NCBI GenBank assembly: GCA_017525875.1
Contig: JAFXSG010000004.1
Location: 140,738 to 202,448, forward strand
Direction of reading: 5' to 3'
Origin: Clostridia bacterium
GTDB lineage: Bacteria; Bacillota; Clostridia; Christensenellales; CAG-138
Length of the DNA stretch: 61,711 nucleotides
The notes beneath the pieces were generated by a model, which worked only from the letters and a program-made list of their open reading frames with translations, did no database searches and was not told the DNA's origin. The translations under genes were made by a program, and so were the position numbers. Positions 29,673-43,540 of this stretch are shown one piece after another (the stretch's first letter is position 1; every line of letters starts with the position of its first letter).

Positions 29673-30587
29673 ATGAAAAGAACCATTGCACTGTTCGCCG
29701 CGTTCCTGATGCTCATCGTTCTCTGCACTACCGCCGGAGCCGCGGCGCTGCCCGCCGGGGAGACGCCCGTCCGCAGCGTGCCCGCCGGGGTGCCCGCCTC
29801 GGCGCAGGAGTGGGAGGTGCTGCGCCTCGCCAACGCCGAGCGCATGAACGAAGGCCTTGAACCGCTCACCATGTTTTCCGCGATGCAGACCGCCGCGGAC
29901 ATCCGCTCACTGGAGATAGTCGAGAGCTTTTCCCACACCAGGCCGGACGGCACGGACTGCTTCACGGTGCTTGACGAGGTCGGCGTGAACTGGTCCTCTG
30001 TCGGCGAGAACATCGCCGCCGGTCAGCAGACCCCCGCAGCCGTAATGAACAGCTGGATGAACAGCCCCGGCCACCGCGCGAACATACTCACCGCCGGCTT
30101 CAGGCACATCGGCGTGGGCTATACCTACAGCCAGGGCTCGGCCTACGGCGCCTACTGGGTGCAGCTTTTCTGCACCGGCTGGGGCTGCAATTACACCTCT
30201 TTTGAGATCCTCGGCGAGCTCGATATGACAACTTCGGTCGACGCGCTCGGCCTTGCGGGCAGGTTCAACTGCGGCGAGGGCTATTGCTGGATGCCCCTGA
30301 CCTCCGCGATGTGCACGGGCGATACGACGGCGAACGGCGTCCGCACGGTGACCTTCTCCTGCTTCGGCCTCACGACATCGATAAGCTGCGGCAGCGCGCT
30401 CCAGGCCGGGGACGTCAACGGCGACGGCGAAATCGATATCACCGACGCGCTGCTCACAATGCGCCATGAAATGGGCATCATCACCCTGACCGCGGAGCAG
30501 CTCGAACGGGCTGACGTCAACGGCGATAACGGAGTCGATATCTCCGACGCGCTGCTCATAATGAGAATCGCGATGGGGATGGACTGA
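29673..30587 (+). CDS. Secreted CAP-domain protein with C-terminal type I dockerin
   Basis: 304 residues. Signal peptide (RTIALFAAFLMLIVLCTTAG), then a CAP/SCP-like domain (about 45-165) with LRLANAERMNEGL, the SHTRPDGTD motif, VGENIA and MNSPGHRANIL, which supply the conserved His and Glu residues. A central region of about 70 residues is unassigned. The C-terminal 60 residues are two dockerin F-hand repeats (DVNGDGEIDITDALLTMRHE and DVNGDNGVDISDALLIMRIA). Secretion plus dockerin suggests docking to a cohesin such as that at 26759-27610. GGAGG precedes the ATG. Confidence 0.93.
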   Translation: MKRTIALFAAFLMLIVLCTTAGAAALPAGETPVRSVPAGVPASAQEWEVLRLANAERMNEGLEPLTMFSAMQTAADIRSLEIVESFSHTRPDGTDCFTVLDEVGVNWSSVGENIAAGQQTPAAVMNSWMNSPGHRANILTAGFRHIGVGYTYSQGSAYGAYWVQLFCTGWGCNYTSFEILGELDMTTSVDALGLAGRFNCGEGYCWMPLTSAMCTGDTTANGVRTVTFSCFGLTTSISCGSALQAGDVNGDGEIDITDALLTMRHEMGIITLTAEQLERADVNGDNGVDISDALLIMRIAMGMD

Positions 30588-33920: not shown

Positions 33921-34568
33921 TCAGCCCGCCGCGTAAGCGCGCATGATCCCGGCGAAGGCGAGCAGCATGAACGCGAGCACGCTTAGATGGTAAACGCCGT
34001 TGTGGTCGAAAAGCCAGATGCATTTGAAGCGGATGGACTTGAAGGTCTGGCAGACGGTGCCGGCAACGAGCACGAAGATCGCCGCGAGGAACCAGCCGAG
34101 GCGCGGGCAGGCGCCGACGTGCGCGATGAGCAGGACGATTATCGCGAGCATATTCAGCGCACAGTAGGCGATGAATACGGTGAAGCCGTAGGAGATACGG
34201 TTCTGAAGGATCAGGCGGACGATGAGGAACAGGGCGGCAAAGCCGCCGAGCACGATAACGGCGGTCTTGAGCCCGGCGGAGCCGAAGATCTCGGAATAGA
34301 TCGCCGCAACGAAACTCACGACAAGCACCGCCATGACCGCATACAGCACGACCCACAGTTTTTTCTTCTTTTCATCGCTCATCCGGAAGCCGTGCACGTA
34401 ATAGCCCATAAGGCTGACGATGAACAGCAGCGAGTAGGAAACGGTCCAAAGCACGAAGCGCGTGTCGGTCCGCCCGAAAACGGCAATGAGCAGGATTAGT
34501 ACGGGGCAGACGATCGCGTCTATGAGATTGGTGTAAGCGGTAACGCTTTCGGGTGGGGAGGTTCGCAT
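33921..34568 (-). CDS. Hypothetical multi-pass membrane protein
   Basis: 215 residues with seven hydrophobic helices (about 13-30, 40-58, 72-90, 98-115, 125-148, 158-178 and 192-212). The last loop (WLFDHNGVYHLSVLAFM) has an H-N-x-x-x-H pattern seen in several small membrane-enzyme and DUF6962-like families. A metal-dependent membrane hydrolase of the CREST/hemolysin-III kind is possible but unproven. It faces divergent dnaA across a 392-bp gap. Function unknown. Confidence 0.75.
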   Translation of the reverse strand: MRTSPPESVTAYTNLIDAIVCPVLILLIAVFGRTDTRFVLWTVSYSLLFIVSLMGYYVHGFRMSDEKKKKLWVVLYAVMAVLVVSFVAAIYSEIFGSAGLKTAVIVLGGFAALFLIVRLILQNRISYGFTVFIAYCALNMLAIIVLLIAHVGACPRLGWFLAAIFVLVAGTVCQTFKSIRFKCIWLFDHNGVYHLSVLAFMLLAFAGIMRAYAAG

Positions 34569-34569
34569 C

Positions 34570-34960
34570 GCGGCTCCTTTCCGTTTTATTGCCGCTCACC
34601 GGGGAGCGGACGTTCTCCGTTCATTATAAAGCCGCGCGCCGGTCAAGTCAACCGGCCCCTCGCCGCGCCGGGCGTCCGGACGGGGCGGCGAGGGACGAAC
34701 GGAAAACGGTTTGTAATACGTGCCGCACGGGCATTTTTTCGCGGAAAAATTTTTTTGAGCCTATCCCGCAGGGCCACAAGATATGGTGGCAGAACAGCCG
34801 CAGCGGGTACAATTCCGCAAAAATTGTCGCTTCGCGAGCCTTGCGAACTCTTCCCAAATTTGGTATGATAATAGCCCGCCCTCGCTCCGGATCTCTCCGG
34901 ATACGCTCTTTCATTTGCCGCGGGGCCGGTTATTTCAACGGTAATTTTCGGAGGCTGATT
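34570..34960. other. dnaA upstream region
   Basis: A divergent intergenic region of 391 bp. I looked for a cluster of DnaA boxes (TTATNCACA) and A+T-rich unwinding repeats typical of oriC and saw none, only a T-rich run near 34735-34757 and the dnaA promoter. Nothing else is supported here. Confidence 0.5.
34841..34869 (+). promoter_or_regulatory. Promoter of dnaA
   Basis: TTGCGA (34841-34846), 17 bp, TATGAT (34864-34869), giving a leader of about 85 nt. Confidence 0.65.
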
Positions 34961-36277
34961 TTGTTATCCGCGAATGTAATATGGTCAAAAGCGCTTCCTC
35001 TGCTGAAGCCTCAAATGACCGAAGCAAGCTATGAAAACTGGATCGCGTCGCTCGCGCCGCTGCGGATCGAAGACGACGGTGCTTTCGTTTTGCTCACGAC
35101 GAGCTCCGTCCACAGGGACACGCTCGAGCGGTTCTATTCCGCCGTGATCGAAAAGGCCCTTCGCGAGGCCGGCGAGGCGGAGCTTTCCGTTCGCTTCGTG
35201 ACCAAGGAGGAGGAGCAGGCGAGGCCCGCGGCAAAGAGCGCCGCGCCGGGCTGCCCCACGCTGATCCCCAAATACACGTTCGACACCTTCGTTCGCGGCG
35301 AGTCGAACCGCTTTGCGTACGCCGCGGCGTTCGCCGTTGCGGACAACCCTTCGGAGGCGTACAACCCGCTGTTCATCTACGGCGGCGTCGGTCTCGGCAA
35401 GACCCACCTCATGCACGCGATCGGGCACTATATCCACGAGCAGCATCCGGATTACAAGATCCTCTATATCACGAGCGAAAACTTCACAAACGACGTCGTC
35501 GCTTCGATCGAAAAGAAGGACCGCGCTTACCTGCGCGAAAAATACCGCACGCTCGACGTGCTGCTGATCGACGATATCCAGTTCATCGGCGGCAAGGAAG
35601 CCACGGAGCTGGAGTTCTTCAACGTTTTCAACGACCTTAAGAACGCCAACAAGCAGATCATCCTCACCTCGGACAAGCACCCGAAGGACCTGCAGACGCT
35701 CGAAGCCCGCATCCGCACGCGCATCGGCTGGGGCCTCGTGGTGGATATCCAGCCCCCGGATTTCGAGACCCGCTTCGCCATCCTGCGCCGCAAGGCCATG
35801 GAGGACGGCATCGACATAGCGGACGGCGTCATCTCCATGATCGCGGAGCGCGTCAATTCCAACATCCGTGAGCTCGAGGGCTGCCTCAACCGCGTCGTCG
35901 CGTACGCCAAGTTCGTGAACAAGCCCGTCACCGTCACGGTCGCGGAAAGCGTTCTCAAGGACTACGTCTCCGGCGAGACCAGGCGCAGCGTTTCGAGCGA
36001 GCTCATAAAGCAGGTCGTATGCGATTTTTACGGCATCACCTCCGCGGAGATCGAGTCCGGCAGGCGCGATCACAAGTTCGCCTATCCGCGCCAGATCGCG
36101 ATGCACCTTTCGCGAAAGCTGCTCGACTGCTCCTACCAGGATATCGGCGCGATGTACGGCGGGCGGCATTATTCCACGGTCATGCATGCCTGCGACACCG
36201 TTGAAGAGGCTGCGGAGAAGGATCCGGAGCTCAAAAAGACGCTCGACGATCTCGTCGAAAAGATCAAGAACGGCTGA
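34961..36277 (+). CDS. dnaA: Chromosomal replication initiator DnaA
   Basis: 438 residues from a TTG start at 34961 with GGAGG six bases upstream. Domain I (LSANVIWSKALPLLKPQMTE) is followed by a variable linker, then the AAA+ core with Walker A GGVGLGKT (141-148), Walker B LLIDDI (201-206) and the sensor-2 arginine region. Domain IV has the DNA-binding signature (FAYPRQIAMHLSRKLLDCSY and YGGRHYSTVMHACDTVEE). It is full length. Unlike most Firmicutes it is not followed by dnaN or recF. Confidence 0.97.
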   Translation: MLSANVIWSKALPLLKPQMTEASYENWIASLAPLRIEDDGAFVLLTTSSVHRDTLERFYSAVIEKALREAGEAELSVRFVTKEEEQARPAAKSAAPGCPTLIPKYTFDTFVRGESNRFAYAAAFAVADNPSEAYNPLFIYGGVGLGKTHLMHAIGHYIHEQHPDYKILYITSENFTNDVVASIEKKDRAYLREKYRTLDVLLIDDIQFIGGKEATELEFFNVFNDLKNANKQIILTSDKHPKDLQTLEARIRTRIGWGLVVDIQPPDFETRFAILRRKAMEDGIDIADGVISMIAERVNSNIRELEGCLNRVVAYAKFVNKPVTVTVAESVLKDYVSGETRRSVSSELIKQVVCDFYGITSAEIESGRRDHKFAYPRQIAMHLSRKLLDCSYQDIGAMYGGRHYSTVMHACDTVEEAAEKDPELKKTLDDLVEKIKNG

Positions 36278-36353: not shown

Positions 36354-37406
36354 TTATACGTTCAAGCAGCCCTTCGGCGGGACGGGGGGCTTCTTTTTGA
36401 GCCCCCTCGCGCAGGCGGGGGCCTCGTAAAGCCTGCCGTGGACGAAATAGTTATAGGAGCGGCAACCGCCCGCGCAGTATTTGCCCTTGGGGCAGGAAGC
36501 GCACGCCCCGGTCAGAAGATCCGGAGTGAACTTGCGGTTGTAGGCGAAGGCGTCCGGATCCTCCCAGATCTCGCGCAGGCTCTTTTCGCGCAGATTGCCC
36601 TCGTTGAAGCGCTCGTCGTACATCGATTCGCAGCCGCGGACGTTGCCGATGCTGTCGATTCCGATCGAGGTCAGCCCCGCGCGGCAGCCCGTGAACACGG
36701 CCTTGCCGCTGGTGTTCCCGCGCAAGCTGCCCTCGCCCTCGGTATAGTAGCCGATATTGTCCGCAATGCCGAGCGGGAAGGGGCAGCGGAGATGCCTTTC
36801 GACGAACGCGATCACGCGGTTCGGGTCGAAGCGGTAGTCCACCCCGCCCTCCGCAGCGTTGCCCATCGGGGAACAGGCCTGCAGCTGCCACGCCGCGATG
36901 CCGCGATCCTTGAGTATCGAGAACATGTCTTCCAATAATGATACGTTCTCGCTGTTGATCGTCGTAATGACCGAGACCGGGACGCCTCCGGCGTGCAGCG
37001 TGTCGATCGCGGTGAGCGCGCGGCGGAAGCTGCCCTGCTGGCGATACTTGTCGTGCACGGCCTCGGTACCGTCCAGCGAGACGGCGACGGATTCGATATG
37101 GAGCTCACGGAGCTTGCCGATGAGCTCCGGCTTGAAAAGGAAGCCGTTCGTGATGATCGCCACGCGGACGCCCTGCGAGGTGAGCCTGCCCACGATCTCC
37201 GCCCAGTCGCGCCGCATGAAGACCTCGCCGCCGATCATCGAGACCCTGCGGCAGCCGAGCTCCGCGAGCTGGTCGGCAACGCTGAGGCATTCCTCGGTCG
37301 AAAGCTCGTTTTCCCTCGCCTTGCCCGCGCGGGAGCCGCAGTATTTGCAGCTGAAGCAGCAGGCGAGCGTGATCTCCCAAACGCAGGAACGAAGCTTGAA
37401 TTCCAT
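36354..37406 (-). CDS. Radical SAM/SPASM domain protein (peptide-maturase-like)
   Basis: 350 residues. The radical SAM C-x3-C-x2-C motif is at about residues 16-23 (LACCFSCKYCGS). It is followed by GGEVFMR-type GGE and a TIM-barrel pattern. The C-terminal SPASM region has clustered Cys in GCRAGLTS, GNVRGCESM, and ACASCPKGKYCAGGCRSY, so two auxiliary Fe-S clusters are likely. Enzymes of this class modify ribosomal peptides (sactipeptides, ranthipeptides, PqqE, mycofactocin) or act as sulfatase maturases. The immediate upstream gene encodes a repeat protein that is a candidate substrate. The ATG at 37406 is 10 bp after that gene. Confidence 0.93.
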   Translation of the reverse strand: MEFKLRSCVWEITLACCFSCKYCGSRAGKARENELSTEECLSVADQLAELGCRRVSMIGGEVFMRRDWAEIVGRLTSQGVRVAIITNGFLFKPELIGKLRELHIESVAVSLDGTEAVHDKYRQQGSFRRALTAIDTLHAGGVPVSVITTINSENVSLLEDMFSILKDRGIAAWQLQACSPMGNAAEGGVDYRFDPNRVIAFVERHLRCPFPLGIADNIGYYTEGEGSLRGNTSGKAVFTGCRAGLTSIGIDSIGNVRGCESMYDERFNEGNLREKSLREIWEDPDAFAYNRKFTPDLLTGACASCPKGKYCAGGCRSYNYFVHGRLYEAPACARGLKKKPPVPPKGCLNV

Positions 37407-37416
37407 AGGCGCTACC

Positions 37417-38439
37417 TTATTTCTTTTCCTTTTTGAACAGCTTGGTGAACAGGCCCTTCCGCGGGGGCTCCTTCCCGCCCTTCTTGAGGAGCGGCGGGCA
37501 GGCGTACACGGACTGAAACACGGGCTCCCGCTTCCCGTTTGGAACGGGCGTGCCGCATTCGGGGCAGAACGGCGAAGACGCCGGGATCCTCGCGCCGCAG
37601 CAGCTGCAGAAAACGGCGGAGCCGTCGCCCGTTCCGTTCGCGTCATCGGGCTTCGCACTCCCGAGCTTAGCGCCGCAGGTCTCGCAGAACCTCGCGGTCC
37701 GGCTGACCTTGCCGCCGCAGATCGGGCAGCGGCCGAGGTCGGCGGGGTCCTTTACGGGATCGGGAGCGAACGCGCCCGGAAGGACGAAGGCGGAGTTCGA
37801 CATGATCTCCGGGCCGGCATAGACCGCCATCATCGACTGATTCGTCAGATCCGGGCGGGGGACCGCATACACGCCCTGCATGAGCTTTTCACGGTCGCCG
37901 CCATTTTTGTTTTCGGGAGCGGGCGGCGGCGGGGGCGCGGCGTAGACGCGGCCCGTGCGCGGAGCACGGCCGGCGAAATAATCCGGCCCCGCGTATACGC
38001 ATTCCATAGCTTTGCGGCGGCTTTTGAAGCGCCGCTCGCGCTCCTCGAAAAACTCGGGCCCGGCATAGACGGGCGCCATCGGGACGTCCTTTTCAAAGGG
38101 GTCGGGTCCTTCGGGCTCTTCGGGCTCTTCGGGCTCTTTGGGCTCTTCGGGTTCTTCGGGTTCTTCGGGTTCCTCGGGTTCCTCTGGTTCTTCGGGTTCT
38201 TCGGGTTCCTCGGGTTCCTCTGGTTCTTCATCTCCGAAGCCCATCATCCCGGGGCCGTTGTATACGTCCTCCGTCAGGGTGTCCTCGTCGGGCTCCTCTG
38301 GCTCGGTGTAGTTCGCGGGGTAGGGAAGGCCGGGCTCTTCGGCTTCGCCGGCAGGCTCGTCCGGGCCGGCGCTCCCGGGCCTCGGGCCGAACGACGGAGC
38401 GGCGTACAGCAGCTTGATCGGGGTTTGTTCTTTCTTCAT
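37417..38439 (-). CDS. Repeat protein with eight [LV]Y-x-x-P motifs and two zinc ribbons (candidate radical SAM substrate)
   Basis: 340 residues, no signal peptide. Eight copies of a short motif: LYAAP (about 11), VYNGP (59), VYAGP (124, 148 and 206), VYAAP (165), VYAVP (190) and VYACP (311). Four copies are preceded at -3 by Met (M-x-x-V-Y-A). Between copies 2 and 3 is a run of about ten EEP triplets. Two rubredoxin-like zinc ribbons (CPICGGKVSRTARFCETCG and CSCCGARIPASSPFCPECG) separate copies 7 and 8. The C-terminus is basic (GLFTKLFKKEKK). GGAGGTG precedes the ATG. The motif is very regular but matches no family I know. Confidence 0.85.
   Translation of the reverse strand: MKKEQTPIKLLYAAPSFGPRPGSAGPDEPAGEAEEPGLPYPANYTEPEEPDEDTLTEDVYNGPGMMGFGDEEPEEPEEPEEPEEPEEPEEPEEPEEPEEPKEPEEPEEPEGPDPFEKDVPMAPVYAGPEFFEERERRFKSRRKAMECVYAGPDYFAGRAPRTGRVYAAPPPPPAPENKNGGDREKLMQGVYAVPRPDLTNQSMMAVYAGPEIMSNSAFVLPGAFAPDPVKDPADLGRCPICGGKVSRTARFCETCGAKLGSAKPDDANGTGDGSAVFCSCCGARIPASSPFCPECGTPVPNGKREPVFQSVYACPPLLKKGGKEPPRKGLFTKLFKKEKK
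38107..38228 (-). repeat. 9-bp tandem repeats encoding EEP triplets
   Basis: About a dozen 9-bp units (TTCGGGCTC/TTCGGGTTC on the plus strand) giving Glu-Glu-Pro on the minus strand. In-frame slippage could lengthen or shorten the acidic linker. Confidence 0.85.
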
Positions 38440-38779: not shown

Positions 38780-41700
38780 ATGAAGAAATCGTTCAAAGGC
38801 TTTATTGCCCTGCTGCTCGCTGTCATGCTCATCGTTCCCGCATTCAGCACGATGGCAGAAGCATTCCCGGCAGCAAATGCAAAGATCGAAGCCGGAGAAA
38901 CCGTTTCCAGGGCCCTGAAGGACAGGACCGGCACTCTTGAATCGACCAAGACCGCCGCTCTCGACTTCTCCGGCATCAGGAACGGCAAGACCTTTAAGGC
39001 AGCTGAGACCGAAGCTGTCAGCGAGACCCAGCCCACCGATATCGTCACCATCATGGTCGAGCTCGAGGCTGCTCCCGCAGCAGACGTTGTAAGCGACCTT
39101 AAGGCGGCGGGCGCGTATCGCCAGCAGCTGCTTGAGGAGCAGAGCAAGATGGTCAAAAAGATCAACTCCGCTCTCGGCACCAGCATCGTTCCCACCCACA
39201 ACTATTCCGTCCTGTTCAACGGTTTCGCTTTCGATGGTGAGTATCGTCTCGTTTCCGAGATCGACGCCATGGACGGCGTACACGCTTTCGTGTCCCCTGT
39301 CTTCGAAAGCCCCGAACTGTTCAACACCACCACCCAGGTCGGCGCTGTCGACGCTTGGGAACTCGGTTACACCGGAGCCGGCTACACCGTAGCTATCGTT
39401 GATACCGGCTGCAAGGTAAACCATCCCGCGTTCTCCGTTGACCCCGAAGAGGTCCAGTTCACCCGTGACGACATCGCTGCGATCATCGCAAGCGGTCAGC
39501 TCTGGGGCAGCGGCAGCACCATGAACGTCAACAACGTTTATGTGAGCGCAAAGATCCCCTTCCAGTGGAACTACGAGTACAACCACGCGGACGCGTCCCA
39601 CCCCGGCACCAGCGACCACGGCACCCACGTTGCGGGTATCGCGGCAGGTAACGGCGGCGAGATCCGCGGCGTCGCTCCCGATGCTCAGATCGCAGTCATG
39701 CAGGTCTTCAGGGCTTCCGGCGGCGCACCCTGGGCAAACATCATCCCCGCTCTTGAAGACTGCGCGGTCCTCGGCGTTGCAGCTGCGAACCTCTCCCTCG
39801 GTTCCCCCTGCGGCACTGAGATCCCCTACGATCCTTCCTATCTGGCAGTCCTCGATCGCTGCGTCAACGCGGGCGTCAACCTCGCTATGGCAGCGGGCAA
39901 CGACTATGACTCCACCTTCAACAACGCTTGGGGCGGCAACGAAGGCACTCCTTCCAGCTACTCCAACTCCGGTTACGGTGTAGTTGAAGACGTCGACCGC
40001 GGCGTTGTCGGTTCTCCCTCCACCTGGCCTCACAGCGTCTCCGTGGCGGCAGTCTACAACTCCATGTCCCGCTTCTACTTCATCACCGTTGAAGGCCAGA
40101 GCTACGGCTACAGCGAGAACGCTGAAAACGCGGCTCAGATGCGCATCGTCCTCGGCGGCCAGACCGTTGAGTACGTTCCCGTTCCCGGCTACGGCACCAT
40201 GAACGATTTCGCTCAGGTCGACGTTGCGGGCAAAGTCGCGCTCGTCTCCCGCGGTGAGATCAACTTCGTCGACAAGGCTGCGAACGCAGAGGCTGCCGGC
40301 GCTGTTGCCTGCGTCGTTTACAACAACCAGGCCGCATCCGTCAACATGGTCGCCTATGAAGGCGGTCATATCCCGCACGTCATCATCTCCATGGAAGCGG
40401 GCGAAGCTCTCATCAACGCTCAGGACAAGACCATGTTCGTCAGCCAGGAGCTCGGCCTCTTCGACAATCCCGACGGCAACAAGACCACCAGCTTCTCCAG
40501 CCGCGGTCTGACCGCAAACATGGCGCTCAAGCCCGAGATCACCGCTCCCGGCGGCTCGATCTACTCCTCCACCGATCCCGCGATCTCCGGCACCTGGTAC
40601 GCGACCTGGGACGGCACCTCCATGGCGACTCCCCACGTCTGCGGCGGTATGGCGATCGTTTCCGCATACGTTGACGACAACTTCCCGGATGCAAGCGCAG
40701 CCGAGAAGCATGACCTCGTCGACCAGATCCTCATGAGCACCGCGACCCCCATCGTAAGCGACAGCGGCGAATACGCTCCCGTCCACGAGCAGGGCGCAGG
40801 TCTGCTCAGCCTCCAGAAGGCTACCACCACCAAGGCGTACATCACCGTTGAGGGTACCCAGGGTAATCGTCCGAAGATGAACCTCGGCGACGATCCCGAG
40901 AAGACCGGCGCAATGACCATGACCTTCACCGTCCACAACTTCGGCGATGAAGACCTGACCTATTCCGTCGTTCCCACCCTCCTCGTTGAGGATATCGCTC
41001 TCTACGATCAGACTCCCGACGGAGACCTGATCCTCGTCTACTACGGCGGCACCGCGAAGCTCGAAGGCGACAGCGGCTACGTCCTCTACGGCGACGCGAA
41101 CGGCGACGGTGAGATCACCATTGCCGACGCTATCCTGATCGCGCGTGACGCGATGGATCTCATCACCCTGCCCGATTCCGTGAACTGCGACCTTGACGAC
41201 GACGGCGAAGTCACCATTGCCGACGCCATCATCGCATGCCGTATCGCCATGGGTCTTATCGATCCCGTCACCAGCGGCGATGAGCCCGGCGACGTCAGCT
41301 TCGATATGCCCGAGACCATCACCGTTCCCGCGGGCGGCGAGCTTGATGTTACCATCAACGCTCAGCTCAGCGACGGCGTCATGGACTACTTCGACAACTA
41401 CTACGTAAACGGCGCACTGCTCGAGGGCTTTGTTGAGCTCGTTCCCGAGGACGGCGTCTCCCTCACCGTGCCCTTCATCAAGATGTACGGCGACTGGAAC
41501 TACGCTGCCACCATCGACCGTGGTTACTACTACGACGACTACCCGCTCAATTCCAACAACTACCCGAACACCATCGGCTGCAGGAAGGGCAACGTCATCT
41601 ACGGTCTCGGCATCAACCCCTATGTTGCTACCGATGACATGAGCTACTACATGACCGACCGCAACGCGATCTCTCCGAACAACGACGGCCTGATGGATAC

Positions 41701-43540
41701 CATCAACGTCCTCTACACCGGTCTGCTCCGCAACGCGGAAGTCAGGTATCAGATCCTTGACACCAACGGCGCTGTGATCGAGACCATCTCGAACCTCGGC
41801 GTAATGAACAAGGGCTTCTGGGATACCGACACCCGTACCCAGCTCGGCGTCACCGAGGGCGTGTTCCCCGGCGGCATCAACTTCACTCAGTACGGCAAGG
41901 AAGACCTCATCGTCCACGTTGAGGCGAAGCTTGACAACGACGGTTCCCACACCACCAATGCCGCAACTCTCGAAGCCAACGAGCACTCCGTATGGGATAT
42001 CCCCGTCCACGTCGACACAGTTGCTCCCTCCATCGCGAACTTCGCGGCGGCCGACGGCACCTTCACCTTCGACGTGACCGATGATCACTACGTCGCGGCT
42101 GTTGCCGTTTACGCTCAGGATGGCGAGAACCTCGGCGAGCTCATCGCTGTCGAGGGCCTCTTCGAGACCGAGCGCGGCATGACCACCGCCATGGAGATCG
42201 AGGGCGATGATACCGCTTACATCGTTGTTGCTGACTATGCAATGAACGAGCAGGCCTACCTCTGGGACGGCACCACCCTCACCCCCGTTGAGAGCGTCCA
42301 GCCCCCGGCATTCGAAGCTCCCTCCACCATGATCTATGGCTACGGCAAGAACTACAACACCAAGGCCTGGGCAAGCGTTTCCACCCTCCGCATGAGTGAA
42401 GCCAACTACGGCGCAGGCGGCGGCCAGGATGCCGGTGACTACACCGCGGCATGCCTCGTCGGCGAAGAAGTCTACGCTGTCGACGCCAGCAAGCAGCTCA
42501 TCAAGTGGAACGCTTCCGACATGGACAGCTGGACCGGCAAGACCACGATCGGCACCCTCACCGTTGACAACTACACCGTCAACGAATTGGCTTACGATGC
42601 TTCCACCGATACGCTCTACTGCGTCGTCGGCCTCGGCATCCTCTATGAGGTAAATCGCCAGACCGGTGCTGCGACCCAGATCTGCGAGCCCGAGTACGGC
42701 GTTGTCGCTATCGACTTCGACGAGGAAGGCACCTGCTACATCGTCGACGCGTACGGCTACCTCTGCACCATGGACGTTGCTACCGGCGCCGAGACCGCGG
42801 AGATCTCTTCCTACGGCATCTCGCCCCTCAACGGCAGCCAGTTCTTCGTACAGGGCGGCTTCTACAGGGAAGGCTGCTTCTTCTGGTTCGCATTCCCCGG
42901 CAACGCAAGCCAGTATGCCGATGCGCACGTCCTCGCGCTTGACGTCGCTTCCGAGTCCTACATCGACCTCGGTTCCCCCGGCGGCGGCCTCTACATGGTC
43001 GGTATGATGGGCGTTTACTGCGACCCGGCTCCCTACCAGCCCCTGACTCCGTCCGTTGATCCCGTCGACTTCTATGACAATTTCGACAGCGGCTTCAACT
43101 GGGACGTCATCGATGCAGACGGCGACGGCAACAACTGGATCACCGACTACGTCGCTGAAGGTAAGTATGTTGACGGCTCCAAGGTCGCGATCAGCTACTC
43201 CTGGAACGACATCATCCTCTATCCCGACAACTGGATGATCAGCCCCGAGTTCGAGATCGGCGAGGGCGAGAAGTGGCTCTCCTTCTTCACCGCTTCCCTC
43301 AACGCCGCTGACGGCGATATCTCCGAGCACTTCCAGGTCATCGTTATCCCGCAGGGCGAGCTCCCCGAGAACGGAACCGTTGTGTATGAGCACACTCTCG
43401 ACACCAACGCTCTCGAAGAGCACCTCGTTGACCTCAGCGCTTTCGCAGGCCAGACTGTCAGCCTCGCGTTCCGTCACTATGACTGCTTCGACCAGTACAC
43501 CCTGATCATCGATGCAGTCGGCGTCGGCAACCTGAAGTAA
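38780..43540 (+). CDS. Large secreted S8 subtilase with internal dockerin and cleaved-adhesin-like C-terminus
   Basis: 1586 residues. Signal peptide (FIALLLAVMLIVPAFSTMAE); an inhibitor-I9-like propeptide (about 75-165); then an S8 domain with Asp208 (IVDTG), His280 (DHGTHVAG) and Ser614 (GTSMATPH). A PA insert (about 440-560) is present. After Ig/Fn3-like beta domains a type I dockerin lies inside the chain (about 770-832, DANGDGEITIADAILIARDA and DDDGEVTIADAIIACRIA). The C-terminal ~180 residues (FDNFDSGFNWDVIDADGDGN, then WMISPEF) resemble a cleaved-adhesin or choice-of-anchor J domain. A surface protease for external proteins is likely. Confidence 0.95.
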   Translation: MKKSFKGFIALLLAVMLIVPAFSTMAEAFPAANAKIEAGETVSRALKDRTGTLESTKTAALDFSGIRNGKTFKAAETEAVSETQPTDIVTIMVELEAAPAADVVSDLKAAGAYRQQLLEEQSKMVKKINSALGTSIVPTHNYSVLFNGFAFDGEYRLVSEIDAMDGVHAFVSPVFESPELFNTTTQVGAVDAWELGYTGAGYTVAIVDTGCKVNHPAFSVDPEEVQFTRDDIAAIIASGQLWGSGSTMNVNNVYVSAKIPFQWNYEYNHADASHPGTSDHGTHVAGIAAGNGGEIRGVAPDAQIAVMQVFRASGGAPWANIIPALEDCAVLGVAAANLSLGSPCGTEIPYDPSYLAVLDRCVNAGVNLAMAAGNDYDSTFNNAWGGNEGTPSSYSNSGYGVVEDVDRGVVGSPSTWPHSVSVAAVYNSMSRFYFITVEGQSYGYSENAENAAQMRIVLGGQTVEYVPVPGYGTMNDFAQVDVAGKVALVSRGEINFVDKAANAEAAGAVACVVYNNQAASVNMVAYEGGHIPHVIISMEAGEALINAQDKTMFVSQELGLFDNPDGNKTTSFSSRGLTANMALKPEITAPGGSIYSSTDPAISGTWYATWDGTSMATPHVCGGMAIVSAYVDDNFPDASAAEKHDLVDQILMSTATPIVSDSGEYAPVHEQGAGLLSLQKATTTKAYITVEGTQGNRPKMNLGDDPEKTGAMTMTFTVHNFGDEDLTYSVVPTLLVEDIALYDQTPDGDLILVYYGGTAKLEGDSGYVLYGDANGDGEITIADAILIARDAMDLITLPDSVNCDLDDDGEVTIADAIIACRIAMGLIDPVTSGDEPGDVSFDMPETITVPAGGELDVTINAQLSDGVMDYFDNYYVNGALLEGFVELVPEDGVSLTVPFIKMYGDWNYAATIDRGYYYDDYPLNSNNYPNTIGCRKGNVIYGLGINPYVATDDMSYYMTDRNAISPNNDGLMDTINVLYTGLLRNAEVRYQILDTNGAVIETISNLGVMNKGFWDTDTRTQLGVTEGVFPGGINFTQYGKEDLIVHVEAKLDNDGSHTTNAATLEANEHSVWDIPVHVDTVAPSIANFAAADGTFTFDVTDDHYVAAVAVYAQDGENLGELIAVEGLFETERGMTTAMEIEGDDTAYIVVADYAMNEQAYLWDGTTLTPVESVQPPAFEAPSTMIYGYGKNYNTKAWASVSTLRMSEANYGAGGGQDAGDYTAACLVGEEVYAVDASKQLIKWNASDMDSWTGKTTIGTLTVDNYTVNELAYDASTDTLYCVVGLGILYEVNRQTGAATQICEPEYGVVAIDFDEEGTCYIVDAYGYLCTMDVATGAETAEISSYGISPLNGSQFFVQGGFYREGCFFWFAFPGNASQYADAHVLALDVASESYIDLGSPGGGLYMVGMMGVYCDPAPYQPLTPSVDPVDFYDNFDSGFNWDVIDADGDGNNWITDYVAEGKYVDGSKVAISYSWNDIILYPDNWMISPEFEIGEGEKWLSFFTASLNAADGDISEHFQVIVIPQGELPENGTVVYEHTLDTNALEEHLVDLSAFAGQTVSLAFRHYDCFDQYTLIIDAVGVGNLK

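Follow-up and report, generated by a model that had tools for sequence, protein, structure and literature searches.

Organization of the locus

Why is a gene for a radical SAM/SPASM enzyme placed directly behind a gene for a long protein studded with short tyrosine-containing repeats, and does the enzyme act on these repeats? The question is raised by the window (the whole stretch of DNA that was analyzed, 61,711 nucleotides), for which an earlier note suggested that the two genes might form a peptide-modification system. The relevant features, in window coordinates, are:

36354..37406, minus strand, gene for the radical SAM/SPASM enzyme, 350 aa (Pfam Radical_SAM, 5.7e-26; SPASM, 2.6e-8)
37338..37361, minus strand, CxxxCxxC radical SAM cluster motif (enzyme residues 16-23)
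36411..36686, minus strand, SPASM region with Cys 241, 259, 302, 305, 311, 315, and 332 (Pfam SPASM)
37417..38439, minus strand, gene for the repeat protein (putative precursor/substrate), 340 aa, acidic and proline-rich
37540..37734, minus strand, double zinc ribbon of the repeat protein (Pfam DZR, 2.8e-11)
38308..38322, minus strand, YPANY (YPx[NSR] element, residues 40-44), recurring across the family
38395..38409, minus strand, motif 1, LYAAP (residue 11; context TPIKLLYAAP)
38251..38265, minus strand, motif 2, VYNGP (residue 59)
38056..38070, minus strand, motif 3, VYAGP (residue 124)
37984..37998, minus strand, motif 4, VYAGP (residue 148)
37933..37947, minus strand, motif 5, VYAAP (residue 165)
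37858..37872, minus strand, motif 6, VYAVP (residue 190)
37810..37824, minus strand, motif 7, VYAGP (residue 206)
37495..37509, minus strand, motif 8, VYACP (residue 311)

Both genes lie on the minus strand, the repeat-protein gene first and the radical SAM gene second; the open reading frames (ORFs), their lengths, and the 10-bp gap between them were located exactly as the earlier note had described. The start codon of the repeat-protein gene is an ATG preceded by GGAGG. The enzyme is a member of the radical SAM/SPASM proteins, with both Pfam domains above cut-off, and no N-terminal domain ahead of its radical SAM domain was found.

The repeat protein carries the same eight [LV]Y-x-x-P motifs that were initially listed, and the two zinc ribbons correspond to the Pfam DZR domain. 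In 20,000 residue shuffles of this protein, the mean number of motifs was 0.15 and the maximum was 3, compared with 8 observed; its three VYAGP copies have three different codings. All eight motifs are internal, a C-terminal site being absent, and Gly is found at the +1 position in 0/8 sites, so that none is XYG. A hydropathy scan of the protein found no hydrophobic segment. A long EEP repeat occupies positions 38104-38229 and has a similar counterpart in the precursor of locus L038, while a PGAFAPDP stretch at 37756-37779 has look-alikes, judged by eye only, in precursors from the nearest genera (GLVMxxP, GAVMPAP).

Co-occurrence of the enzyme and the repeat protein

A scan of contigs with two peptide patterns gave 211 enzyme relatives, of which the best 80, mostly from MAGs of rumen and gut Clostridia, were analyzed. 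In 72 of these 80 loci, an ORF with at least two motifs is located directly upstream of the enzyme gene and ends next to its start. Another motif ORF lies beside the enzyme in six of the remaining eight: the upstream ORF carries at least one motif-like site in L085, L105, L108, L111, and L128, and in L121 the motif ORF is downstream of the enzyme on the opposite strand. Locus L079 is cut by a contig end, and no substrate ORF was found in the 13-kb locus L104.

In the family to which the window belongs, an enzyme relative at E ≤ 1e-60 is present in 18 of 103 genomes. An adjacent ORF with at least three motifs was observed in 17 of them, counting the own genome, and in the last one the enzyme is at a contig start. 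A DNA pattern encoding VY[AG][AG]P[DEG] and then two F/Y/M-type codons, with the reversed pattern as a control, matched 15 of the 18 enzyme-bearing family genomes (the own genome among them) vs. 0 of 85 lacking the enzyme; all 29 matches are on the contig of the enzyme, and the control gave none. In a class sample of 393 genomes, the pattern occurs in 7/7 genomes with the clade enzyme and in 7/386 without it, absence of the enzyme not being absolute since mostly no more than five best candidates were scored per genome. The seven clade members of this sample were separated from eight distant ones by score (477–662 vs. 283–307 bits). The seven genomes with the pattern but without the enzyme have one match each, and all six that were inspected fall in unrelated ORFs; the reversed control produced five matches in four genomes of the sample. 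In family f19 (nine genomes, also in the class sample), the pattern was found in 3/3 genomes with the enzyme and 0/6 without, while family f53 comprised only five genomes. The genome sets overlap (e.g., L042 and L058 are on contigs that agree in length and layout), and hence these counts are not independent. At G215:C95 and G383:C174, motif matches were also found downstream of the enzyme, and thus a second substrate may flank it.

The pairing of the enzyme with the repeat protein is real and widespread. Homologs of the two genes co-occur in a near-strict manner (15/18 vs. 0/85 in the family, 7/7 vs. 7/386 in the class), in line with the partnership suggested at the outset, and a wide occurrence of repeat proteins in genomes lacking the enzyme was sought and not found. 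A trivial explanation, an ordinary radical SAM gene that happens to neighbor a low-complexity protein, could draw on the EEP stretch and on L104 as the single substrate-free locus, but is at odds with adjacency and co-occurrence over about 80 loci; we consider it extremely improbable and reject it on the co-occurrence counts.

Conservation of the motif and other precursor features

Motif conservation was assessed in 78 precursors, comprising those of 77 loci among the best 80 of 211 and that of the window; they were trimmed by a rule placing the start at an M no more than 80 residues ahead of the first element, five were added by hand, and a few are truncated where their contig stops. YxxP holds 327 of the 550 Tyr residues in these proteins, with one to nine copies per precursor. 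The residue preceding the Tyr is V in 81% of the 327 sites (L 8%, A 6%), position +1 is A in 85% (M 4%, G 4%; Met/Phe forms include VYMGPP and AYFGPG), position +2 is G in 75% and A in 15% (Gly or Ala in 90%), and position −4 is M, I, or F in 74%. XYG, the site of spliceotides, thus accounts for 4% of the 327 sites, with LYGAP in the basal L128. When the search form does not presuppose Pro, i.e., [VLIA]Y[AG][GACSV], Pro is the next residue in 281 of 283 cases.

The form [LV]YxxP was observed 293 times in the 78 proteins vs. 5.2 expected. VYAGP alone is present in 184 copies from 72 loci, written in 119 codings, which indicates that selection acts on the protein. Six of the nearest precursors share 27–32% identity with that of the window in the best local match, compared with 74–79% for their enzymes. 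The check set out in the earlier note, conservation of the motif with a varying copy number, is passed, and the linkers and zinc ribbons vary too. Given the adjacency and co-occurrence of the genes, the conserved core motif, and the variable flanks, the unit is a RiPP-like maturase/substrate pair.

The zinc ribbons had been put forward as the recognition module, which as a general rule is unlikely for two reasons. Firstly, CxxC is entirely missing from 15 of the 78 precursors, including L096 and L110 that are cut by contig ends; a CxxC pair was found by a loose rule in 61/78 untrimmed precursors, and by a stricter count in 58/78 trimmed ones, one N-terminal ribbon having been lost to trimming. 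Secondly, another element is near universal: YP outside YxxP, mostly followed by x[NSR], occurs in 74/78 precursors vs. 21.1 expected from shuffles. The four without it are L110, L116, and L117, which begin at contig ends, and the basal L128. We give this YPx[NSR] element an even chance of being a docking (leader-like) site for the enzyme. None of the 78 trimmed precursors has a hydrophobic segment.

In three loci, the motif tail is attached to other domains, namely, WXG100 (L128), FMN reductase (L126), and rRNA adenine dimethylase (L094). The tail is in frame with the RsmA-type rRNA methylase of L094 (4786-5970) and with the FMN reductase of L126 (4907-5998). The upstream ORF of L128, a WXG100 protein of the ESX type, has a C-terminal MLYGAP site and neighbors the enzyme that is basal in the clade.

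Genomic neighborhood

The pair is flanked on one side by dnaA (Pfam Bac_DnaA; 34553-36277), which is convergent, with 76 bp between its end and the enzyme gene, and on the other side by a divergent gene; a PlpY-like gene was not found beside it. In the 80 loci (best 80 of 211), no conserved third gene was found among ORFs of at least 70 aa; the commonest other neighbor is an ABC-transporter-like ORF, seen at varying places in 11 of the 80. The C39 domain is absent from the 832 ORFs of these loci, and the repeat protein has no Pfam match to a Nif11 or NHLP leader. As neither a leader protease nor an exporter was found at the loci, the unit does not have the make-up of a RiPP natural product cluster, although such genes may lie elsewhere in the genomes.

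The window also encodes a CAP protein carrying a dockerin of type I (29673-30587) and a large S8 subtilase (38780-43540) in which PA and cleaved-adhesin domains are accompanied by a dockerin-like stretch, the latter as read from the sequence. The subtilase, which is beside the pair, was considered as its target and dropped because its protease domain is unmatched in the 832 ORFs of the 80 loci, where only the dockerin-like stretch was matched.

Kinship of the enzyme

IPR026482, the InterPro entry of PlpX, is taken here to be identical with TIGR04103. The enzyme of the window scores 228.6 bits with TIGR04103 (cut-off 725) and 220.1 bits with TIGR03913, the model of GDL maturases (cut-off 591.75), and being below both cut-offs it lies outside both families; by this cut-off it does not count as a splicease of the PlpX type, although TIGR04103 is its best-scoring model. 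Both models were matched at E ≤ 1e-45 by all 48 aligned enzymes, i.e., that of the window and those from 47 of 68 cleanly translating loci, while any other model was matched by at most three. When enzymes were scanned individually, TIGR04103 was the best model for each, namely, those of the window, L121, L104, three members of clade B, and Agathobacter.

The phylogenetic tree contains 45 rows (31 of the 80 loci, the window, 8 clade-B loci, and 5 plasmid rows) and has a midpoint root only. The enzymes paired with repeat proteins form a YAxP clade of 32 rows (support 100/96) with L128 basal, joined by a Clostridial clade B of 9 rows (support 100/99). A group of four further out includes an enzyme from Nostoc, which is a TIGR04103 member (853 bits, cut-off 725) and 36% identical to that of the window, and a GDL enzyme from Azospirillum (763 bits). 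All ten Cys are invariant in the 48 aligned enzymes, including Cys 16, 20, and 23 of CxxxCxxC, which are kept at ≥90% in all three groups of relatives, and the seven of the SPASM region. Residues W173, Q174, Q176, M181, G182, G219, and Y220 are likewise kept at ≥90% in all three groups; WQ.Q....MG is found in 45/45 tree rows and [DN][NC].GY[YF] in 43/45. Among the 8 radical SAM loci fetched from the 17 matches in the own genome, only that of the window has the conserved residues and motifs. Foldseek and VIA recovered the general SPASM fold; no splicease is among the matches listed, which rules out nothing.

The substrates found beside the more distant enzymes are informative. The Nostoc TIGR04103 enzyme adjoins a Nif11 precursor with the C-terminus LYGLPPELF, so the view that the motif has no counterpart among known RiPP classes is not supported, the enzyme of the window belonging to the same wider group. 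This LYG precursor and the shared enzyme group make tyramine excision, a reaction absent from those named in the earlier note, the leading chemistry. In clade B, 8 of 9 rows are located beside a precursor with 3–16 YG sites: six are ORFs of 82–104 aa with 3–4 sites, and two of about 310 aa have 10 (L184) and 16 (L189). In the ninth row, from an Agathobacter plasmid, the upstream ORF is short and contains a single MYG. The Tyr is preceded by Lys in 26 and by Leu in 10 of 47 clade-B sites, a tally that leaves out six sites from two unrelated ORFs. The residue before Tyr thus differs between clades (Val 81% in the YAxP clade), a pattern to be expected if the target protease varied from clade to clade. 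A C39 peptidase-transporter was found in 5/8 clade-B loci vs. 0/80 YAxP loci (best 80 of 211). The large clade-B substrate of L184 (4293-5237) contains a chagasin domain (Pfam Inhibitor_I42, 5.2e-12), and that of L189 (4345-5289) has no Pfam match but resembles it by eye. Locus L186, with a multi-YG precursor and a C39 transporter, also encodes a serpin-like ORF, as read from its sequence.

Six DUF1843 peptides were found beside GDL-type maturases of Azospirillum and Aureibacter (L196, L197), each with [LMP]Y[GAM] near its start (LYGG, PYGV, MYMA, LYAA in LYAAG, MYAA, and PYGA). This suggests that GDL enzymes may also act on the Tyr of this site. From the Nostoc, clade-B, and GDL sites, XY[GA] (once XYM) is common to the loci inspected in the wider group.

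These data bear on the reading that [LV]YxxP stays unmodified and is a linear motif by which the enzyme, or some other partner, is bound and recruited, the target of the enzyme being elsewhere. Zinc-ribbon scaffolds with short linear motifs in disordered linkers would look like this. It is nevertheless an improbable reading, as the motif follows the presence of the enzyme from one genome to the next, XY[GA] sites are present in small proteins beside related enzymes, and the published splice tag resembles the motif.

Proposed activity and alternatives

The motif Tyr is very probably modified. We propose that the radical SAM/SPASM enzyme may be a dedicated maturase of the neighboring repeat protein, probably docking via the YPx[NSR] element and acting on the Tyr of every [VL]-Y-[A/G]-x-P copy. 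Each site would undergo a splicease-like action turning the Val into a keto-beta-amino acid. The resulting protein would stay in the cytosol, without export, and bear up to eight electrophilic ketoamides; in this mechanism it would probably inhibit proteases in a multivalent, reversible, and covalent manner, with Val at P1. HtrA- and elastase-type proteases favor Val at this position. The chances of tyramine excision being the chemistry are about equal either way, and inhibition of proteases by the product is a doubtful prospect; the latter role is suggested by the description of spliceotides as protease inhibitors in PMC11117315. A leader is not required for splicing, which fits sites scattered through one protein.

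Several observations count against the splicease reading. At +1, Ala makes up 85% and Gly only 4% of sites, and Met/Phe is tolerated. The TIGR04103 score is 228.6 vs. 725, and the GDL model is about equally near (220.1). A PlpY-like partner and a Nif11/NHLP leader were not found beside the window pair, nor was a C39 exporter in the 80 loci. We also considered that the same Tyr might undergo another radical reaction with no backbone splicing, such as a Val-Tyr or Tyr-Pro C-C bond, desaturation, epimerization, or side-chain loss. SPASM enzymes catalyze many reactions, and that of mycofactocin joins Tyr to the adjacent Val (PMC8326336). The replacement of XYG by XYA with Met/Phe tolerated at +1 suggests a different geometry, and so do Gly/Ala at +2 (90%) and Pro at +3 (281/283). 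On the other hand, the nearest kin of known reaction are the spliceases, assuming the identity of the PlpX entry with TIGR04103, and the mycofactocin maturase model TIGR03962 scores lower (139.6 bits, cut-off 265, vs. 228.6). MftA is modified at its C-terminal VY, a single site, and since the sites in the window are internal, mycofactocin-like C-terminal chemistry was rejected. Another reaction at the same Tyr is a distinct possibility that falls short of an even chance.

A wider form of this alternative is a new reaction at V-Y-A-G-P, other than tyramine excision, performed many times along resident cytosolic proteins as a general protein-labeling system of gut Clostridia. Its carriers would be zinc-ribbon scaffolds and, where the motifs form a portable tail, proteins of the RsmA, FMN-reductase, and WXG100 types, and not an exported peptide. 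We regard this wider reading as rather unlikely.

The unit is real, widespread, and under selection, and judging from sequence comparisons it is probably best described as a splicease-type variant. More specifically, a multi-site splicease-like system, leaderless and not exported, that uses XYAxP in place of XYG has, in our estimate, a one-in-two chance of being correct. If so, splicease-type backbone editing would no longer be confined to small peptides destined for export but would include long cytosolic proteins with multiple sites, in many Clostridia of the rumen and gut. The site XYAxP would lie outside the published XYG rule and provide a natural leaderless tag, and the enzyme would offer biocatalysis a new means of installing several ketoamides in a single protein. 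It would then become a question which internal proteases or partners meet the Val-ketoamide scaffold.

Comparison with known systems

The pairing of [LV]YxxP with a radical SAM enzyme was not found in the open literature; the main spliceotide survey (Chem 2022) is outside this scope, and an earlier mention is possible. Mycofactocin maturation differs from the present system in its single C-terminal site, the motifs here being internal. The likeness is that MftC is also a SPASM enzyme working on a Val-Tyr pair, bridging the Tyr and the neighboring Val according to PMC8326336.

The GDL maturases (TIGR03913) provide the second-best model for the enzyme of the window, and their peptides include LYAAG; in contrast, these peptides are short DUF1843 proteins with one such site each. 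Clade B (L182–L189) shares a related enzyme clade and several sites per precursor, with one YA site in L186, but its YG sites mostly follow Lys or Leu, and its precursors have, in place of zinc ribbons, a chagasin domain or leaders judged by eye to be of the GG type.

PlpX cuts tyramine out of XYG and leaves an alpha-ketoamide, as described in PMC11002830 and PMC10533398. The system reported here differs from PlpX and other spliceases in having Ala and not Gly at +1, a long cytosolic substrate, and a model score far below cut-off, and it is without a Nif11/NHLP leader, a PlpY-like gene next to the window pair, or, in 80 loci, a C39 exporter. It resembles them in its best model (TIGR04103), the SPASM Cys pattern, WQxQ....MG, and the outline of the substrate site. 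The splice tag is given, with LYG, as GGPIRPLYGLPI in PMC10533398, and this LYG-bearing form presumably represents the natural PlpA2 core. In the same paper, FtsZ insertions are mostly unspliced, LYG ones included, and context thus matters for the tag. When GGPIRPLYGLPI is aligned with TPIKLLYAAP of the window, P, I, a basic residue, L, Y, and P are in register.
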